A program made the translations under genes and the position numbers. DNA of 38,669 bases from Candidatus Taylorbacteria bacterium RIFCSPLOWO2_01_FULL_45_34b (GTDB lineage: Bacteria; Patescibacteriota; Minisyncoccia; Phycocordibacterales; DSPV01). Location of the stretch: the NCBI GenBank assembly GCA_001822675.1, contig MHRY01000013.1, forward strand, positions 2,024 through 40,692, in the 5' to 3' direction. The notes under the pieces are model-generated. The model ran no database searches, had not been told where the DNA came from, and saw only the letters and a program-made list of their open reading frames with translations. The stretch's first letter is position 1, and every line of letters starts with the position of its first letter. Of the stretch, positions 5,757-36,077 are shown one piece after another.

Positions 5757-5789
5757 AAAAAAGCGCTAGAATATGATGATTCTAGCACT
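5757..5789 (-). terminator. Rho-independent terminator at the RT stop; identical copy at 8420-8452
   Basis: Minus strand GCTAGAAT-CATCAT-ATTCTAGC followed by GC then T6; 33 nt identical to 8420-8452. Confidence 0.8.
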
Positions 5790-6774
5790 ATTTCAGGAAT
5801 TTTGAAATTTTATTTTGCAAACCATATGCATTACCATGCTTCAATAATCCAATATATGAAATGATACTTTGAGGTGTTGGATTCTCGTTAATTCGCTTTA
5901 TCATTCTTCTTTTTGTACTTGTCCTCAAAACTCGATGTTTTGGAAAATTCACCCAGCCTAAAAAATCAACTCCAGAAGCAACTGTTTGTATGAAAACTTT
6001 GTCAGGGTGTAATTCTAGTTTTAACTTCTCATGTAGATATCTTACGATATATCGTAAGACAACTTTCAACTCTTTTTTATCTCCAGATAAAATCACAAAA
6101 TCATCAGCATACCGAATGTAGTATTTAATTTTTAAATTATGTTTAACATATTGATCAAATTCGTTCATGTAAATATTGACTAAAAGCTGGGAGGTCAGGT
6201 TACCGAGTGGTAATCCTATTCCCTTATTTGTGGAGCAAAAACTTTCTACTATATTCTGGATAAGCCACAAAATATCTTTGTTTGGTATGTATTTGTCGAG
6301 AATTTGATAAAGCAAAAAATGGTCAATGTTCGCAAAGAATTTTTTTATATCACACTTAAGCACCCACACTGTTTTTGTATTATTTTTACTAACACGAAAA
6401 AAATATCTTCTGAATGTTTCCACTGCTTTATGTGTGCCCTTCTGAAGTCGGCACGAGTACGAATCAGTCGCAAATACTCTGTCAAAAAACGGGTACAACT
6501 TTCTATACAAGGCACGATGAAGCAGTCTGTCCCTCACACTTGCCTTGTGAATATCACGGGGTTTCGGGTCAGAAATTTTGAAATGCTTATACGGTTCATG
6601 CTGATATGTCTTATCTTTAAGCTCTTGATGCAAAGAGAAAATATTGTCCATAAGCCGTAATTGAAATTCCTGTACATCCTTTTTTTTCCGCTTCCCTTTT
6701 ATAAACTCTTGCCATGCACCAAGTAAATTCTCGATAGAAATGATATCGTTATATGTATGAGCGAATTGAATCAT
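5788..6774 (-). CDS. DGR reverse transcriptase
   Basis: 'YADD' catalytic motif; DGR-type 'GLPLGNLTSQ' motif instead of QGxxxSP; N-terminus 'NLLGAWQEFIKGKRKKKDVQEFQLRLMDNIFSLHQELKDKTYQHEPYKHFKISDPKPR...DRLLHRAL...DSYSCRLQKGTH'; adjacent TR/VR pair. Confidence 0.95.
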   Translation of the reverse strand: MIQFAHTYNDIISIENLLGAWQEFIKGKRKKKDVQEFQLRLMDNIFSLHQELKDKTYQHEPYKHFKISDPKPRDIHKASVRDRLLHRALYRKLYPFFDRVFATDSYSCRLQKGTHKAVETFRRYFFRVSKNNTKTVWVLKCDIKKFFANIDHFLLYQILDKYIPNKDILWLIQNIVESFCSTNKGIGLPLGNLTSQLLVNIYMNEFDQYVKHNLKIKYYIRYADDFVILSGDKKELKVVLRYIVRYLHEKLKLELHPDKVFIQTVASGVDFLGWVNFPKHRVLRTSTKRRMIKRINENPTPQSIISYIGLLKHGNAYGLQNKISKFLK

Positions 6775-9326: not shown

Positions 9327-11042
9327 CTACATTTTTTCGGGCGTAGGAATACCAAGAAGCGCGAGACCATTTTTTAAGACGATGGCAAAAGCAGAGACAA
9401 GTGTCAGTTTGTATGAAGCCGATTCGTTTGCAGTATCAACAATTTTTCCTTCCGCGTAAAAAGCGTTGAAGGTAGCGACGAGTTCGGTCAAATAGGTAAC
9501 GAGATGGTGCGGAGAAAATTCTTCGGCCGAGCGGGAGACGATTTCGGGGAAACGAGTGAGGAGTTTTTCGAGCGGCGTGGTCGTCCAGTCGGCAGGCATT
9601 TTTGGCTCCGCGCCTTCGCCAAAAATGCCTGCCTCTTTACCTTTTTCCAAAAGAGACTTTGCCCTAGCCAATCCATACTGGAGATACGGCCCCGAATCAC
9701 CTTCAAAAGAAATGGATTTTTCAAAATCAAAAATAATGTCGCCACCGACAGCTTGGCGTAAAATCGAATACTTGATGGCCCCAATCGCCACCTTCTCTTT
9801 AATTTCTTCCGCAAGCGCCGCATCATACCCACGATCTTTTATCTTTTCCGCAACCAGCTTTTTAATATCGTTAATTAATGACTCCGCCGTTATCACATCA
9901 CCCTTACGAGAAGACATTTTCCCTGACGGTAATTTAAGCAGACCATGAGCAAGATGTTTCGTCTTCTTTCCTATGGCTGGATAAATGAGCGACAGCACTT
10001 TCAAAAGAACACTGAAATAGCCGCTCTGTTCATTAGCCGTGATGATAATTGATTCCGAAAGATCCGGCTCGACTTCAAACTTCTTTCTATTAAGCCCGAG
10101 TTCTTTTGCTTCGTAGGTGGGCAAACCCTTGGAGTTAATAAACACCCTCGTATGTAAACCGTATTTTTCACCCCTAAACACAATAGCCCCTTCACTCTCT
10201 TCAAAAACTGCCTTCTTTAAAAATTCCAGTATCACCGCTTCACCGTCTCTTCCCTCTTTGCTTTCAAAAAAATTATAATCAAAATGAGTATCGAGTCGTT
10301 TATAAATCTCTTCAAATGCTTCGAGAGAAATTTTTCGTCCGCTGTCATAGAGAGCGTTTATTTTTTCGTCGCTCCGCTCATAGACTTTTTTATTCAATTC
10401 CTCAATTTCTTTTTTGGCCAAAACATCATCTTCATACGCAGTTGAACCTGTGGCATAGGCCTTACCCCACTTTGCCGGATTTTTCGGCTCGCCATTTTTA
10501 AGCGCCCCCCAAATAGCTTTTGCCACATGCAACCCGACATCCCCTTGCCATGTGGCGCGTTTCACCTCCGCCCCTTCGAAAGCAATAAGCCGACAAAGAC
10601 TTTCACCAATGGTATTCGACATCAAGTGGCCGATGTGAAATTCCTTGAATGGATTCGGATCGGTGAATTCCACCATCACTTTTTGCCCCGCTCGTTTTTT
10701 GTTTTTGCCAAAACCATCCCCAACTTTTATAATCTCGCTTACCTCGTTAGCAAAGTAATTTTTTGAAAGATAAAAATTAATAAATCCTGCTCCGGCAATT
10801 TCAACTCTTTCAAGGCTCAACCTTTCGGCCGCCGAAAGGTTGAGCCTTTCTTTAATCCTCTCCGCCAATTCTCTCGGCTTCATGCCAAGCTCTTTCGCGA
10901 ACACAAGGGCCACATTTGTCGAAAAATCTCCGTGACCAATATCTGCCGGATGCTCCAAAAAAACTTTCGGATTTGAAACCGAAAGAGCTTCCAATGTTTC
11001 GGAAATAAGATTCTTCAAAACTTCCTTTATCATCTCTGTCAT
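9327..11042 (-). CDS. argS: Arginyl-tRNA synthetase
   Basis: 'FTDPNPFKEFHIGHLMSNTIGESL', 'GLLKLPSGKMSSRKGDVI', anticodon-binding C-terminus; 571 aa. Confidence 0.96.
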   Translation of the reverse strand: MTEMIKEVLKNLISETLEALSVSNPKVFLEHPADIGHGDFSTNVALVFAKELGMKPRELAERIKERLNLSAAERLSLERVEIAGAGFINFYLSKNYFANEVSEIIKVGDGFGKNKKRAGQKVMVEFTDPNPFKEFHIGHLMSNTIGESLCRLIAFEGAEVKRATWQGDVGLHVAKAIWGALKNGEPKNPAKWGKAYATGSTAYEDDVLAKKEIEELNKKVYERSDEKINALYDSGRKISLEAFEEIYKRLDTHFDYNFFESKEGRDGEAVILEFLKKAVFEESEGAIVFRGEKYGLHTRVFINSKGLPTYEAKELGLNRKKFEVEPDLSESIIITANEQSGYFSVLLKVLSLIYPAIGKKTKHLAHGLLKLPSGKMSSRKGDVITAESLINDIKKLVAEKIKDRGYDAALAEEIKEKVAIGAIKYSILRQAVGGDIIFDFEKSISFEGDSGPYLQYGLARAKSLLEKGKEAGIFGEGAEPKMPADWTTTPLEKLLTRFPEIVSRSAEEFSPHHLVTYLTELVATFNAFYAEGKIVDTANESASYKLTLVSAFAIVLKNGLALLGIPTPEKM

Positions 11043-12342: not shown

Positions 12343-13527
12343 TTACCCCCGCAACACCTTGTTTATTTTTTGCGCAATTTTTCGAAAATCTTTTTCTTTC
12401 TTGCCTCGCGTGGTTTCGGCCGGAGAACCTAAGCGGATACCAGAAGGGTCAAACGGCGACCGTTTTTCTCCCGGAATGGTATTTTTGTTCACAATGATGG
12501 CGGCTTTCTCAAGTTTTGCTTCTGCTTCCTTTCCAGAAATACCTTTCCCATTCATCCACGTGTCCACGAGGACAAGGTGAGAATCGGTGCCACCTGAAAT
12601 AACTTTCCAGCCAAGTTTTTTTAATTCATCCGCTAACCCCCGCGCATTCTTCACGACCTGTTCAGCGTATTTTCTAAATGCGGGCCTAGCTGCTTCTTTT
12701 AAAGCCACTGCCACAGCCGCAATCTGACTCATGTGCGGCCCGCCCTGTAGGCCGGGGAAAACCGCTTTGTCTATAAGAGTTGAAATATCTTTTTCTCCCA
12801 TTTTTTTGTCTCGGCGAGAAAAAATAATAGCGCTGCGAGGCCCGCGAAGTGTCTTATGGGTAGTAGTGGTAACAACGTCGGCATAATCAAACGGCGAATT
12901 ATAAACACCGCCCGCAACCAGTCCAGCAAAATGGGACATATCAACCATGAGAAACGCGCCGCACGCGTCTGCGATCTCTTGGAATTTTTTGAAATCAATC
13001 ATACGTGGATATGCCGTAAAACCAGCCACAATTAAATTTGGTTTTTCTTTGAGCGCCTGTTCCTTGATGGCGTTGTAATCGAGAACCTCTGTCTCTGGAT
13101 CAACTCCGTATGAAATCTGCTGCCAGGCTTTGCCCGTCATAGAAACTTTTTGGCCATGAGAAAGATGTCCTCCGGCAGTAAGCGTCATACCCATTATCTT
13201 TCCACCGATTGGAACAAGAGCTAAATACACAGCAAGATTGGCCGGTGAACCTGAATGAGGTTGGACATTTGCGTGCCACTTATCAGCTGAAAGTTTGAAC
13301 AACTTCAGAGCTCGGTCTTTTGCTAGATCTTCGAGCGTGTCTGTGTAGGTCTGACCGCCGTAATATCTTTTACGTGGATACCCTTCGGCATACTTATTAT
13401 CAAAGATAGAACCAAGAGCTTCTAAAACATCCGCCGAGCAATAATTTTCTGATGGAATGAGATTGATGACTTTTTTTTGTCGAGCTCCTTCAGCTTTAAT
13501 AAGTTTTTTAATTTGTTTATCTTTCAT
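12343..13527 (-). CDS. glyA: Serine hydroxymethyltransferase
   Basis: 'NLIPSENYCSADVLEALGSIFDNKYAEGYPRKRYYGGQ', 'VVTTTTHKTLRGPRSAIIFSR'. Confidence 0.95.
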   Translation of the reverse strand: MKDKQIKKLIKAEGARQKKVINLIPSENYCSADVLEALGSIFDNKYAEGYPRKRYYGGQTYTDTLEDLAKDRALKLFKLSADKWHANVQPHSGSPANLAVYLALVPIGGKIMGMTLTAGGHLSHGQKVSMTGKAWQQISYGVDPETEVLDYNAIKEQALKEKPNLIVAGFTAYPRMIDFKKFQEIADACGAFLMVDMSHFAGLVAGGVYNSPFDYADVVTTTTHKTLRGPRSAIIFSRRDKKMGEKDISTLIDKAVFPGLQGGPHMSQIAAVAVALKEAARPAFRKYAEQVVKNARGLADELKKLGWKVISGGTDSHLVLVDTWMNGKGISGKEAEAKLEKAAIIVNKNTIPGEKRSPFDPSGIRLGSPAETTRGKKEKDFRKIAQKINKVLRG

Positions 13528-13730: not shown

Positions 13731-13776
13731 GCAATGGAATGATAACTATGCTATAGCATAGTTATCATTCCATTGC
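13731..13776. repeat. 46-nt perfect palindrome upstream of the Cas2/PaaX-like gene
   Basis: GCAATGGAATGATAACTATGCTA|TAGCATAGTTATCATTCCATTGC, each half the exact reverse complement of the other. Confidence 0.95.
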
Positions 13777-13796
13777 TAAAAGATAAATGTTAAGAT

Positions 13797-14378
13797 GTGA
13801 TCATGGGAAAAATGGAAATTGAGGTGCAGAAGATCACTCGTAAAACAAAGATTCAGAAAATTATTCTAGCCTCTGTTGCTACTGCCGGAATTTTAAGCAT
13901 GGCCATGCTCGCCCCAAACGCCATCCAGACGCTGAAGCTTTTTGATAAAAGAAAATCTCGTACTTTTAGACAAACGCTTAATAATTCACGTCGCCGGCTT
14001 ATCCGGACAGGACTCCTTGAAAATAAAGAAGGTTTTCTAAAATTGACGGAGAAAGGTCGGCAGAAACTAGAGGAATTCGAGCGGCGAGACTACAAACTCA
14101 CCCGCCCCAAGAAGTGGGACCAAAAATGGCGAGTGCTTATTTTTGATATTCCGGAAAAAAGAAAGGGTACGCGAGAAAAAGTCCGCTTAACATTACAATC
14201 CCTCGGATTCAAACACCTCCAAGACAGCGTTTGGGTGTTTCCTTATGACTGCGAAAATTTAATCACTCTGCTCAAAGCCGACTTCAAAATCGGCAAGGAC
14301 ATGCTCTATCTTATTGTCGAAAAAATCGAAAACGATAAAAATCTTATCGACTACTTTGGTTTAGAAAAAAAGAAATAG
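13797..14378 (+). CDS. PaaX-like/Cas2-like protein: N-terminal hydrophobic segment, winged-helix region, C-terminal Cas2-like ferredoxin fold
   Basis: wHTH-like 'SRTFRQTLNNSRRRLIRTGLLENKEGFLKLTEKGRQKL' then 'KWRVLIFDIPEKRKGTREKVRLTLQSLGFKHLQDSVWVFPYDCENL'; GTG at 13797 or ATG at 13803. Confidence 0.8.
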   Translation: MIMGKMEIEVQKITRKTKIQKIILASVATAGILSMAMLAPNAIQTLKLFDKRKSRTFRQTLNNSRRRLIRTGLLENKEGFLKLTEKGRQKLEEFERRDYKLTRPKKWDQKWRVLIFDIPEKRKGTREKVRLTLQSLGFKHLQDSVWVFPYDCENLITLLKADFKIGKDMLYLIVEKIENDKNLIDYFGLEKKK

Positions 14379-14397
14379 ACCCGACCACTTCCCAAGT

Positions 14398-14439
14398 CAT
14401 GGAATAATAAGCTTGCTATAGCAAGCTTATTATTCCATG
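14398..14439. repeat. 42-nt perfect palindrome downstream of the Cas2/PaaX-like gene
   Basis: CATGGAATAATAAGCTTGCTA|TAGCAAGCTTATTATTCCATG; same 40-nt architecture as 13734-13773. Confidence 0.95.
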
Positions 14440-14529: not shown

Positions 14530-15441
14530 ATGAAACCACTAAGCGAACGGACAATTGATTCTCAATATCAGCAATTACTCAAAGACATTCTGGAAAAAGG
14601 AGTGCGGACACCGAGCCAGCAAGGCGAGGATGCGTTGACGCTTATCGGCCCCAACCCGCTTCATTTCAAACTCGACAACGGCTTTCCAATTATCAATGAG
14701 CGAAACATGGCACCGAAGGAATCGGAGAATTTGCCGGTAACTGTCTGGCGCCAGGCCATCGCCGAAATTTGCGCTTTTATTAACGGCGTTCGAACACAAA
14801 AAAGTTTGGAAGAATTTGGCGTCTCGTGGTGGAAATCCTGGCTCACCGAAGAGAAGTGTAAAAAGCGTGGTCTCGAAACCGGCGATCTCGGTCCCGGCTC
14901 ATACGGAGCGGCTTTTCACGATTTCCCTACCGCCGAAGGTGAGAAATTCAATCAATTTAAATTTTTGATTCAGCAGATAAAAGAACAACCTCAACTACGT
15001 ACTCATTTTGTCACACCATGGATTCCGCAATACACGTATCGCGTTAAAGACCGCCAGCAAAAGGTAGTGGTTTGTCCCTGCCACGGCTGGATTCATATTC
15101 GAATCATTGATAACAAATTGACCTTGCACATGTTTCAGAGATCAGCTGATGTGCCAGTCGGTGTTCCTTCAAACATGGTTCAGTACGCCGCCCTCACCAT
15201 GGCTATCGCGCAGGCGACAGGACTTGAACCGTACGAATACGTCCACAGCTTTTCCGATGCTCATATTTATGTGAACCAGGTGCCAGCAGTCGAAACCATG
15301 CTCTCGCGCGAACCGAAAAAATTGGCGACCATGACACTTGGCCCGAAAGTGAAGGATATTTTTGAATTACGGAAGGAACATTTTACTCTGTCGGATTATG
15401 AACCGCACCCGGGAATTAAAGCGATACCCGTAGCTATCTAA
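14530..15441 (+). CDS. thyA: Thymidylate synthase (ThyA type, divergent)
   Basis: 'CHGWIHIRIIDNKLTLHMFQRSADVPVGVPSNMVQYAALTMAIAQATGLEPYEYVHSFSDAHIYVNQ'. Confidence 0.9.
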   Translation: MKPLSERTIDSQYQQLLKDILEKGVRTPSQQGEDALTLIGPNPLHFKLDNGFPIINERNMAPKESENLPVTVWRQAIAEICAFINGVRTQKSLEEFGVSWWKSWLTEEKCKKRGLETGDLGPGSYGAAFHDFPTAEGEKFNQFKFLIQQIKEQPQLRTHFVTPWIPQYTYRVKDRQQKVVVCPCHGWIHIRIIDNKLTLHMFQRSADVPVGVPSNMVQYAALTMAIAQATGLEPYEYVHSFSDAHIYVNQVPAVETMLSREPKKLATMTLGPKVKDIFELRKEHFTLSDYEPHPGIKAIPVAI

Positions 15442-15486: not shown

Positions 15487-15981
15487 ATGATTTCTATAAT
15501 TGTCGCCGCGTCGGATAATAATGTTATCGGTCATTTGAATAAACTGCCATGGTACTTGCCAAGCGATTTAAAACGCTTTTCTAAATTAACTACAGGCCAT
15601 ACGGCTCTCATGGGACGTAAGACTTTTGAGTCAATCGTGGCGAGACTCGGTCATCCTCTTCCCAATAGAAAGAATGTGGTTATAACCCGAGATAAAGGCT
15701 ATAAAGCAGAGGGCGCCGTTGTGGTAATGTCTTGGGACGAGGCGACGAAAGCGACGGCGGGCGAGGAAGTGTTTGTCAGCGGTGGTGCTGATATCTATGC
15801 CATGGCCCTCCCCTATGCCGACAAGCTTTACCTCACTCGTGTTCACTTCCAAAGCGATGGTGATGTTTTTTTACCAAAAATAGATATGAGCGAGTGGAAA
15901 GAGGTCAGCAAAGAATCTCACCCGAAAGACGAAAAAAACCAATATGATTCAACTTTTTACATATATGAACGAAAAAAATAA
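15487..15981 (+). CDS. folA: Dihydrofolate reductase
   Basis: 'ISIIVAASDNNVIGHLNKLPWYLPSDLKRFSKLTTGHTALMGRKTFESI'. Confidence 0.95.
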   Translation: MISIIVAASDNNVIGHLNKLPWYLPSDLKRFSKLTTGHTALMGRKTFESIVARLGHPLPNRKNVVITRDKGYKAEGAVVVMSWDEATKATAGEEVFVSGGADIYAMALPYADKLYLTRVHFQSDGDVFLPKIDMSEWKEVSKESHPKDEKNQYDSTFYIYERKK

Positions 15982-20054: not shown

Positions 20055-20169
20055 GGGTATAAATTATATTATTGTTCCCCTTATTAAAAAAGGCCTACTG
20101 GCCAGTTTTACGAATCCATAGTACACCTTTTGTAACTGTTGTCAACGAGAGTGGACGCTAGGATTATCA

Positions 20170-20220
20170 GAACCCCGAGGTTGAACCTTGGATCCGGAGA
20201 AAGGTTCAACCTCGGGGTTC
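20170..20220. repeat. Inverted repeat, AAGGTT family, 20-bp perfect arms
   Basis: GAACCCCGAGGTTGAACCTT - GGATCCGGAGA - AAGGTTCAACCTCGGGGTTC. Confidence 0.9.
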
Positions 20221-20343
20221 TAGACCTTCCAAAAAACCCGACTGGAGAATCGCGCCAGATAATAAAGAGCGAGAAAGAAAATAGAACATGTACTAATAAT
20301 CCTTTACTGCAAGGTTGTGCTACAAGGTCGAACCTTGTAATCT

Positions 20344-26850: not shown

Positions 26851-26952
26851 GTGGCAGTTCCTACAGCTTTTGGGAATTGCTGCTTCTGACCAGAGTGCGG
26901 TTCCACGATGGAACCACACGAGTCCTGCCAACTGTTTTGGCAGGATTTTTTA
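26851..26952 (+). ncRNA. Candidate small ncRNA ending in a terminator hairpin
   Basis: TTGCCT-N18-TACACT upstream; hairpins GCAGTTCC/GGAATTGCTG, GTGcGGTTCC/GGAACCaCAC; terminator TCCTGCCAA-ctgtt-TTGGCAGGATTTTTT. Confidence 0.4.
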
Positions 26953-26980
26953 TCTCTTACGATATATCGTAAGAGATAAA
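26949..26980. repeat. 32-nt perfect palindrome
   Basis: TTTATCTCTTACGATATATCGTAAGAGATAAA; its central 20 nt are identical to 6040-6059 in the RT gene. Confidence 0.9.
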
Positions 26981-30650: not shown

Positions 30651-31307
30651 TTAGATCTTGCGAACGCGAATAACGGTCGAGTTGACAACACTGCCAACAC
30701 TTGAGGTCGCCTTAGCTTCGCCTGCCGTGACCGTACCGCCATTACCACCATCGGAATCAGTGGTGCCGCCACCGGTCGTGTTGTTATCGTCCTTGTCACC
30801 GTTGATGTTGCCACTGTCCTTCACTTTGGTCGTAGCGCTGCCGCCGTCTGTTGAATTCAAACCGGTGTCAGCCAACGTACCCACCTCATTCACAACAGTG
30901 GTGTTCTTATTCTTCACACGAACATCAATATCACCCTTGCAACCGCACTCGGTCTTGACCTTAATGTCGGTTGAATTAACATCGTTCCACACGGTTGAAT
31001 CTGCCTTAGCTTTGCCTGTCGTGACCGTACCGCCATTACCACCATCGGAATCAGTGGTGCCGCCACCGGTCGTGTTGTTATCGTCCTTGTTGCCGTTGAT
31101 GTTTCCGCTATTCTTTACCTTAGTGGTTGCGCTACCGCCGTCGGCAGTATTACCGCCAGTGTATGCGCCCGTGGAGACACCATTTACAACAGTGGTGCCG
31201 CTATTCTTCACGTAAACATCAATGTCAGATGCCCAGTGAGAAGCAAAAGCTGGCGAAGCCGCAACAAACATCGCGGCCGCCGCAATTCCTGCAATAACTT
31301 TATTCAT
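30651..31307 (-). CDS. Secreted protein with two near-identical tandem repeats
   Basis: Signal peptide; 'VKNSGNINGNKDDNNTTGGGTTDSDGGNGGTVTTGKAKA' and 'VKDSGNINGDKDDNNTTGGGTTDSDGGNGGTVTAGEAKA'. Confidence 0.85.
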   Translation of the reverse strand: MNKVIAGIAAAAMFVAASPAFASHWASDIDVYVKNSGTTVVNGVSTGAYTGGNTADGGSATTKVKNSGNINGNKDDNNTTGGGTTDSDGGNGGTVTTGKAKADSTVWNDVNSTDIKVKTECGCKGDIDVRVKNKNTTVVNEVGTLADTGLNSTDGGSATTKVKDSGNINGDKDDNNTTGGGTTDSDGGNGGTVTAGEAKATSSVGSVVNSTVIRVRKI

Positions 31308-35054: not shown

Positions 35055-35987
35055 TTACCTCACATCTGAGCGACCTAAAATCTTGAATCCGTCAATAATG
35101 GCTTCACACAAAAAATCTTCCAATTGGCTCTGATCCTCTTTAGTCTGAGCTTTATAGAGATATGTATAATAAAGCTGTTTTTGCTCTTGACGGATGATTG
35201 CCGGAGTAAAATTTGCACTAAGTAACATTGCGTTCATAAGCAAACGACCGACACGACCGTTACCATCCCCGAATGGATGAATCTGTTCAAATTTACTATG
35301 TACGCCGGCAGACAAAGCAATAATATCTTTGGTTTTTGGAGTTATGCGAGCCATAACTTCTGGTACAAGTTTAGGAACGCTCATATAATTTGCAGTAGGC
35401 AAATTAACACCGGTGATTCTGACTCCGTGACTGCGATAAACACCAGCATCTGGACGAACACCGTTCATAAGGATGCTGTGGAGTTTAAGTACCAGAGTTT
35501 CATCAACTTTTTCTTTCTTGGCGACGTGATCAAATAAGTAATTCAAAGCTGTCTGATGGTTTTTTGCCTCTAGTTGCTCTGTCAGACTTTTATTTGGTAA
35601 AGCGGCATTATCAAAAAGAATCGCGGCCGTATCCAGTTCGGTAAGAGTACTACCCTCAATGCTGTTGCTGTGATAGGTGAGCTTCAAAATAAATTGATCA
35701 CGGATATCCGGATTAGCTAAAATTTCATTTATAACACTTTTATGTTCTCCTGATTTTTGCCGGAGAGCCTGTTTCTTTGCTGTTAGTTGATTAGAAGGGA
35801 TTGTTTTTTGCCCAGTCACTTCCAAAAAGAGCTCGTCAATGGAAGCCTGCATTTTTGGTCTGGGACTAGATCTACCGGTCCACCAGCTGTTGAAAGCTGC
35901 AAAAGACACGCCGAATTTTTCAGCGAGCTTGGTTTGGGTTAGCCCCAACATTCTTTGAATTACTTCTAGTTTTTGACGTATAGTCAT
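35055..35987 (-). CDS. Fic-family protein with N-terminal XRE-type HTH
   Basis: Fic motif 'HPFGDGNGRVGR'; inhibitory-helix-like 'SNSIEG'; N-terminal 'LGLTQTKLAEKFGVSFAAFNSWWTGRSSP'. Confidence 0.95.
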   Translation of the reverse strand: MTIRQKLEVIQRMLGLTQTKLAEKFGVSFAAFNSWWTGRSSPRPKMQASIDELFLEVTGQKTIPSNQLTAKKQALRQKSGEHKSVINEILANPDIRDQFILKLTYHSNSIEGSTLTELDTAAILFDNAALPNKSLTEQLEAKNHQTALNYLFDHVAKKEKVDETLVLKLHSILMNGVRPDAGVYRSHGVRITGVNLPTANYMSVPKLVPEVMARITPKTKDIIALSAGVHSKFEQIHPFGDGNGRVGRLLMNAMLLSANFTPAIIRQEQKQLYYTYLYKAQTKEDQSQLEDFLCEAIIDGFKILGRSDVR

Positions 35988-36027
35988 AGATATCTTACTT
36001 TATGAGCTAATAAACATTATGTTAACA

Positions 36028-36077
36028 AACTTTATAAAGTTAGTCAAAATACTCAAACTTTATAAAGTTTGAGTATT
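36028..36077. promoter_or_regulatory. Two ACTTTATAAAGT palindromic operators upstream of HTH-fic
   Basis: AACTTTATAAAGTT (36028-36041) and AATACTCAAACTTTATAAAGTTTGAGTATT (36048-36077, 30-nt perfect palindrome). Confidence 0.65.

Follow-up and report, generated by a model that had tools for sequence, protein, structure and literature searches.

A gene for a Cas2/PaaX-type protein bracketed by near-perfect palindromes recurs in Parcubacteria and may form part of a REP/RAYT-like system

The closest known system to the locus described here is that of REP elements and the REP-associated tyrosine transposases (RAYT/REPtron, REPIN) (PMC2817692, PMC3116915). RAYT orthologs are reported to hold their position while the repeats change yet remain palindromic (PMC2817692), and the position of the gene considered here is likewise conserved. 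Our best reading is that a protein of the Cas2/PaaX type takes the place of the Y1 transposase in a REP/RAYT-like system and that it probably represses its own gene; movement and catalysis we infer.

Cas2 and the C-terminal domain of PaaX have a common ferredoxin-like fold, and Cas2 works with Cas1 on DNA ends. The hosts of the gene described below are Parcubacteria, which are tiny and uncultured. An earlier note on this DNA put the unit forward as a candidate undescribed mini-element, and our literature searches likewise returned no paper on such a system, its novelty being provisional in that most subscription journals lay outside their reach.

The locus and its protein

We analyzed a window of 38,669 nucleotides (the whole stretch of DNA under study, to which all coordinates refer unless a contig is named) from Candidatus Taylorbacteria bacterium RIFCSPLOWO2_01_FULL_45_34b. 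The features of the locus are as follows.

12343 to 13527, minus strand: glyA, the upstream neighbor, in conserved synteny.
13731 to 13776, no strand: upstream palindrome, 46 nt, perfect, with 23-nt arms, no loop and the center CTATAG; matched by the covariance model of the family.
13791 to 13796, plus strand: putative -10 box TAAGAT, 6 nt 5' of the ATG, spaced as in relatives.
13803 to 14378, plus strand: gene for the winged-helix (wHTH) plus Cas2/PaaX_M-type protein, 191 amino acids from the ATG (193 from the GTG at 13797).
13953 to 13985, plus strand: codons 51-61, covering the N-terminal portion of the recognition helix as predicted (helix 52-68 of the model), with the strongest covariation with the palindrome arms.
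14145 to 14147, plus strand: codon for Asp115, invariant across the 81 aligned homologs.
14398 to 14439, no strand: downstream palindrome, 42 nt, perfect, with 21-nt arms, no loop and the center CTATAG.
14530 to 15441, plus strand: thyA, the downstream neighbor, in conserved synteny.
15487 to 15981: folA, 3' of thyA.

The earlier note had described two perfect palindromes bracketing one gene, with differences between them compensated in such a way that symmetry survives, and both observations held. Perfect palindromes with arms of 21 nt or longer have a chance expectation of about 1e-8 at the base composition of the window, and every change by which the two palindromes differ is mirrored in the opposite arm. 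The spacing given for the gene was correct for the stop codon (14376-14378), which lies 19 nt ahead of the downstream palindrome, and for the GTG at 13797, which lies 20 nt past the upstream one, but the conserved start of the family (protein M-G-x-x-E) is the ATG at 13803, 26 nt past the palindrome. The spacing of TAAGAT, 6 nt before this ATG, suggests a leaderless mRNA, and the upstream palindrome would at this locus overlap the -35 region.

The inferred product of the gene matched PaaX_M (68.1 bits, cut-off 24) and no other family in a Pfam search, that is, without a match to Y1_Tnp (PF01797). Among NCBIfam models it exhibited a weak match to cas2 over about 37 of 96 positions (25.8 bits, cut-off 24.5) and scored 43.7 bits with the PaaX equivalog model, far under the cut-off of 264.55. 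When an AlphaFold2 model based on 81 homologs (mean pLDDT 76) was compared with the PDB by Foldseek, the best match was E. coli PaaX, followed by Cas2 and Rv0674, with modest E-values (1.4e-3 at best). The sequence profile agrees with the match to a PaaX-type fold (PaaX, 8a39; Rv0674, 3kfw), and profile and structure model both place the PaaX_M domain behind an N-terminal winged helix. Position 115 is Asp in 81 of 81 homologs, whereas E. coli PaaX (8a39) and Rv0674 (3kfw) both have another residue where it aligns. We take Asp115 to correspond to the catalytic Asp of Cas2, and its retention is compatible with, rather than proof of, a role in processing. The gene is under strong purifying selection (dN/dS about 0.05-0.15, with dN about 0.11-0.17 and dS greater than 1). 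One locus (L117) has a single in-frame stop in the gene; we make no claim of pseudogenes for other, seemingly broken copies, in which the flagged stops mostly proved to be the gene's own stop codon where the match ends.

Elsewhere in the window, we noted an open reading frame of 328 codons resembling a reverse transcriptase (5788-6774); a gene for a secreted protein with repeated NTxxGGxAxTxxxxSGNxN-like units, beside other Ser/Thr-rich secreted proteins (30651-31307); and tandem palindromic sites, CAAACTTTATAAAGTT, at 36018-36077, which are operator-like and lie just 5' of an HTH-Fic gene (35055-35987).

Recurrence of the unit and matching of protein to palindrome

The gene family is present in 118 of the 297 sampled genomes of the order (about 40%), in 1-11 copies each, and the named matches in the genome collection were all to Parcubacteria. 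The architecture recurs in these relatives: at the scoring threshold, 70 of 80 homologous loci have at least one flanking palindrome and 36 have one on both sides, compared with a background in which 2.7% of 3040 windows reach the threshold; the other 10 loci have no flanking palindrome above it. Within 200 nt of the gene, strict palindromes reach 66 times the density found elsewhere (1.125 versus 0.017 per kb, 80 loci). Copies from four genomes (G252, G085, G112, and G108) mostly repeat the pattern, and paralogs that are 75-81% identical in DNA bear quite different arms. We also considered carriage by phages or plasmids and rejected it: phages yielded no matches, plasmids only distant relatives of PaaX, and a viral contig one distant relative.

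The two palindromes of one element agree at 32.7 of 40 positions, whereas those of different elements agree at 17.2 of 40, even when the elements are paralogs within one genome, and in 44 of 55 cases no palindrome matched better than the partner in the same element. Similarity of the outer arms tracked similarity of the HTH region of the protein (rho 0.364, reached in 0 of 200 permutations), as compared with a rho of 0.10 for the Cas2 domain. Partial correlations with the outer arm were 0.354 for the HTH region given the Cas2 domain (0 of 300 permutations) and -0.05 for the Cas2 domain given the HTH region. The top covarying columns are residues 57, 54, 58, 51, 49, and 61, at the start of model helix 52-68, and several of them are spaced i, i+3, i+4, as on one face of a helix. 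Since it is the predicted recognition helix, rather than the Cas2 domain, with which the outer arms covary, recognition of its own palindromes by the protein is very probable; this covariation is the strongest evidence for it. It is what would be expected if, as the earlier note suggested, the wHTH/Cas2-like protein binds these palindromes. With the many paralogs each having a distinct address, residues 51, 54, 57, 58, and 61 set against the outer arm would give a natural specificity code.

Solo palindromes, inheritance, and rival explanations

Solo palindromes that match the elements' own are found throughout G003, G252, G085, and G108, and matching palindromes number zero in G002, a gene-free congener of G003. 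We examined 44 of the solo copies from these four genomes and found that 18 were in a tandem setting, 11 in a convergent setting, and 7 in a divergent setting, with 4 more lying within short, dubious open reading frames and 4 at contig ends; many thus lie outside promoters. In the source genome (G000), the family of the window has one clear solo copy, 95% identical to the downstream palindrome (G000:C18:11974-12013), and the palindrome family of a paralog on contig C21 has about five. At three syntenic sites, solo palindromes of G003 are missing from G002, where divergence hides the exact junctions.

Co-occurrence of palindrome and protein, proposed as a check on the original claim, was borne out in related genomes. 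A covariance model found a match in 63 of 118 genomes with the gene and in 17 of 179 without it (odds ratio 10.9, p 7e-17), figures to be read with the model having been built from gene-linked, selected palindromes, with the elements' own flanking palindromes included in the counts for gene-bearing genomes, and with the genomes being related, not independent. The gene is present in 30 of the 32 genomes having at least five strand matches, every palindrome being counted on both strands. An exception is G079 (L329-L341), which has at least 20 such palindromes of at least three families and in which a PaaX_M gene was not found. We note that one palindrome of the type lies in that genome within a thyA-folA-palindrome-glyA region.

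Other Taylorbacteria genera, one Ryanbacteria contig, and genomes from several further families have the glyA-gene-thyA-folA order in whole or in part. Because this order is common to several lineages, the gene at the window locus is, as judged from synteny, old and mostly vertically inherited. The same conservation speaks against a recent mini-insertion at this locus; the earlier note had entertained a hairpin-ended mobile element. Target-site duplications showed no clear excess over shuffled pairs, and we saw no sign of hairpin ends or of cleavage. Empty glyA-thyA sites, which it proposed to look for in relatives, were found in part: G002 has glyA, a thyA-like gene, and folA close together with both the gene and the palindromes absent, while the gene order itself is conserved in several lineages. 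At two other sites of G003, the gene and both palindromes are jointly absent from the syntenic region of G002, too diverged for exact junctions to be drawn, and for one pair of Nomurabacteria elements homology runs as far as the outer palindrome edges and stops there. No excision or insertion junctions were seen at the loci compared. Of the immediate neighbors of the gene, 125 of 192 are unrelated to any other. The system would be both mobile and old, at different levels.

The upstream palindrome extends over the -10 box of what appears to be a leaderless promoter in 35 loci, and in 20 of these the -10 sequence is a match of 5/6 or better located 6 nt ahead of the ATG. This overlap makes autoregulation by the protein plausible, in keeping with the autoregulated locus envisaged in the earlier note. 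It also lends weight to the most durable of the rival explanations, namely that the protein is purely a regulator of transcription, with the gene-side palindromes as autoregulatory operators, the solo palindromes as its regulon, and nothing that moves. The fixed spacing of the upstream palindrome over the -10 box, the PaaX-type architecture, and the conserved glyA-gene-thyA-folA order all suit such a regulator, and coevolution of HTH and arm would be expected of an operator too. However, there is an equally matched second palindrome downstream, and since 33 of 76 neighbors on that side are convergent, this palindrome is not explicable as the operator of the next gene. (Operators of adjacent genes were in any case rejected as a general account, given that the neighbors are mostly unrelated and often convergent.) The settings of the solo palindromes, their variation between congeners at syntenic sites, the retention of Asp115 where two aligned PaaX-type structures lack an Asp, and a near-perfect symmetry across 38-50 nt that exceeds the needs of an operator likewise count against regulation alone, which we consider unlikely.

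A second explanation, which we judge highly improbable, is that Y1 transposases of the IS200/RAYT type encoded in the same genomes spread the palindromes in trans, with the PaaX/Cas2-like gene serving as passenger or regulator. Y1_Tnp genes were indeed present in seven of seven genomes tested, including G079, with its palindromes and no PaaX_M gene found; but G002 has Y1_Tnp genes as well and zero such palindromes. Moreover, when 12 Y1 loci were scanned with the covariance model the only match was the own palindrome of the element on contig C24, several Y1 loci bear other, looped hairpins, and the arms follow the HTH of the PaaX/Cas2-like protein.

Finally, the arms bear on whether the palindromes act as DNA or as RNA. 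Mismatches between arms, read on the gene-sense strand, comprise 62 G:T and 62 A:C; RNA pairing would favor G:U, so this equality argues against RNA hairpins, and we regard constraint on the palindromes as DNA, not RNA, as strongly supported by the mismatch pattern. All 44 palindromes in the alignment behind the covariance model have a C....G center, asymmetric centers (CGACCG/CGGTCG) occur in mixed orientation, and 98% of cells in the alignment are paired, which is not independent support because the aligned sequences were chosen for symmetry. Bidirectional terminators are palindromic, and the palindromes are intergenic and often convergent, but the notion that they are terminators or other RNA hairpins of neighboring genes is scarcely credible given the equal mismatches, the lack of a T-run at the gene-linked palindromes (by inspection), the covariation of the arms with the HTH of the protein, and an Rfam search in which no family reached its gathering score and sub-threshold matches were to unrelated hairpin families only.

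Other repeats deserve mention. A separate family of dispersed palindromes, TCTTACGATATATCGTAAGA, is represented in the window at 26949-26980 and partly at 6035-6064, with about ten copies in the source genome and six in the gene-free G002; because of its presence in the latter we set it aside. One copy adjoins a TrpR/YerC-like gene (G000:C19:970-1359), and the family may therefore be the operator of that regulator. Hairpins of the GGTTCAACCTT type, looped or near-loopless, occur at 10812-10848 and 20169-20221, resemble those that adjoin Y1_Tnp genes in L351 and L352, and are probably, on that resemblance, the REPs of a genuine RAYT system. The source genome, at 0.78 Mb, has seven Y1_Tnp genes, a RAYT complement that seems rich for so reduced a genome.

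A candidate REP/RAYT-like cycle and its relation to known systems

We place the probability that the gene and its two palindromes are inherited together as a single unit of a REP/RAYT-like system at roughly 0.6. In such a system the protein would bind the palindromes as a symmetric oligomer through its recognition helix, and, given the position of the upstream palindrome over the -10 box, binding there should repress the gene's own promoter. The Cas2-type domain, with its retained active-site Asp, may nick or otherwise process the palindromes, and processing would cause or aid their copying to new intergenic sites. For the gene, vertical inheritance would be the rule, with an occasional move or duplication. 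Fold-back template copying, the binding of a symmetric dimer, or the two together could maintain the near-perfect symmetry. A REP/RAYT-like cycle would be the simplest account of paired and solo palindromes alike. More tentatively, as a possibility that we rate below even odds, a single nuclease of the Cas2 fold, directed by its own winged helix and needing neither Cas1 nor a transposase, might copy perfect palindromes to sites across the genome and so represent a new class of minimal mobile or repeat-amplifying system. Each paralog would then have its own palindrome address, and several orthogonal families would thus exist in one cell.

The likeness to PaaX (8a39; Rv0674, 3kfw) lies in a wHTH followed by a Cas2-like domain and in the best fold and sequence matches. 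The window protein differs in having 191 amino acids and no PaaX-type C-terminal region (full-length PaaX has about 300), in failing the equivalog cut-off, in keeping the Cas2-type Asp, and in being bracketed by two palindromes. With Cas2 it shares a ferredoxin-like domain, a conserved Asp ending the first strand, and a weak profile match, but its Cas2-like domain is joined to a wHTH at the N terminus, and no cas1 adjoins the gene. The earlier claim that cas1 is missing stands for the window, in which a reading of the open reading frames revealed neither cas1 nor a CRISPR array, and for six other genomes (G002, G003, G079, G085, G108, and G252), in which no Cas1 homolog was found. It does not stand for the source genome, which has one Cas1 homolog with in-frame stops on another contig (L355, G000:C21:25052-25696), which may be the remnant of a CRISPR adaptation gene or else a gene end plus a neighboring frame.

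The resemblance to RAYT/REP extends to a small gene between two palindromic repeats, coevolution of gene and repeat, dispersed intergenic copies, and a correlation of repeat presence with gene presence (G079 excepted). On the other hand, the protein is of the Cas2/PaaX type, without a Y1 domain and without homology to RAYTs; the parcubacterial palindromes are fully symmetric and loopless, with an invariant C....G center and no GTAG tag; the repeats of RAYT systems are in inverted orientation, whereas the symmetric palindromes here are orientation-free; and genuine Y1 genes with looped hairpins of their own coexist in the same genomes. Thus, although the system would function as REP/RAYT does, it falls outside that group, the Y1 domain, the tag, and the loop all being absent. 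If our reading is right, a Cas2-type protein operates outside CRISPR in a repeat-spreading or palindrome-processing system in 118 of 297 genomes, which would assign the Cas2 fold a stand-alone role and provide an apparently non-homologous parallel to RAYT/REP.
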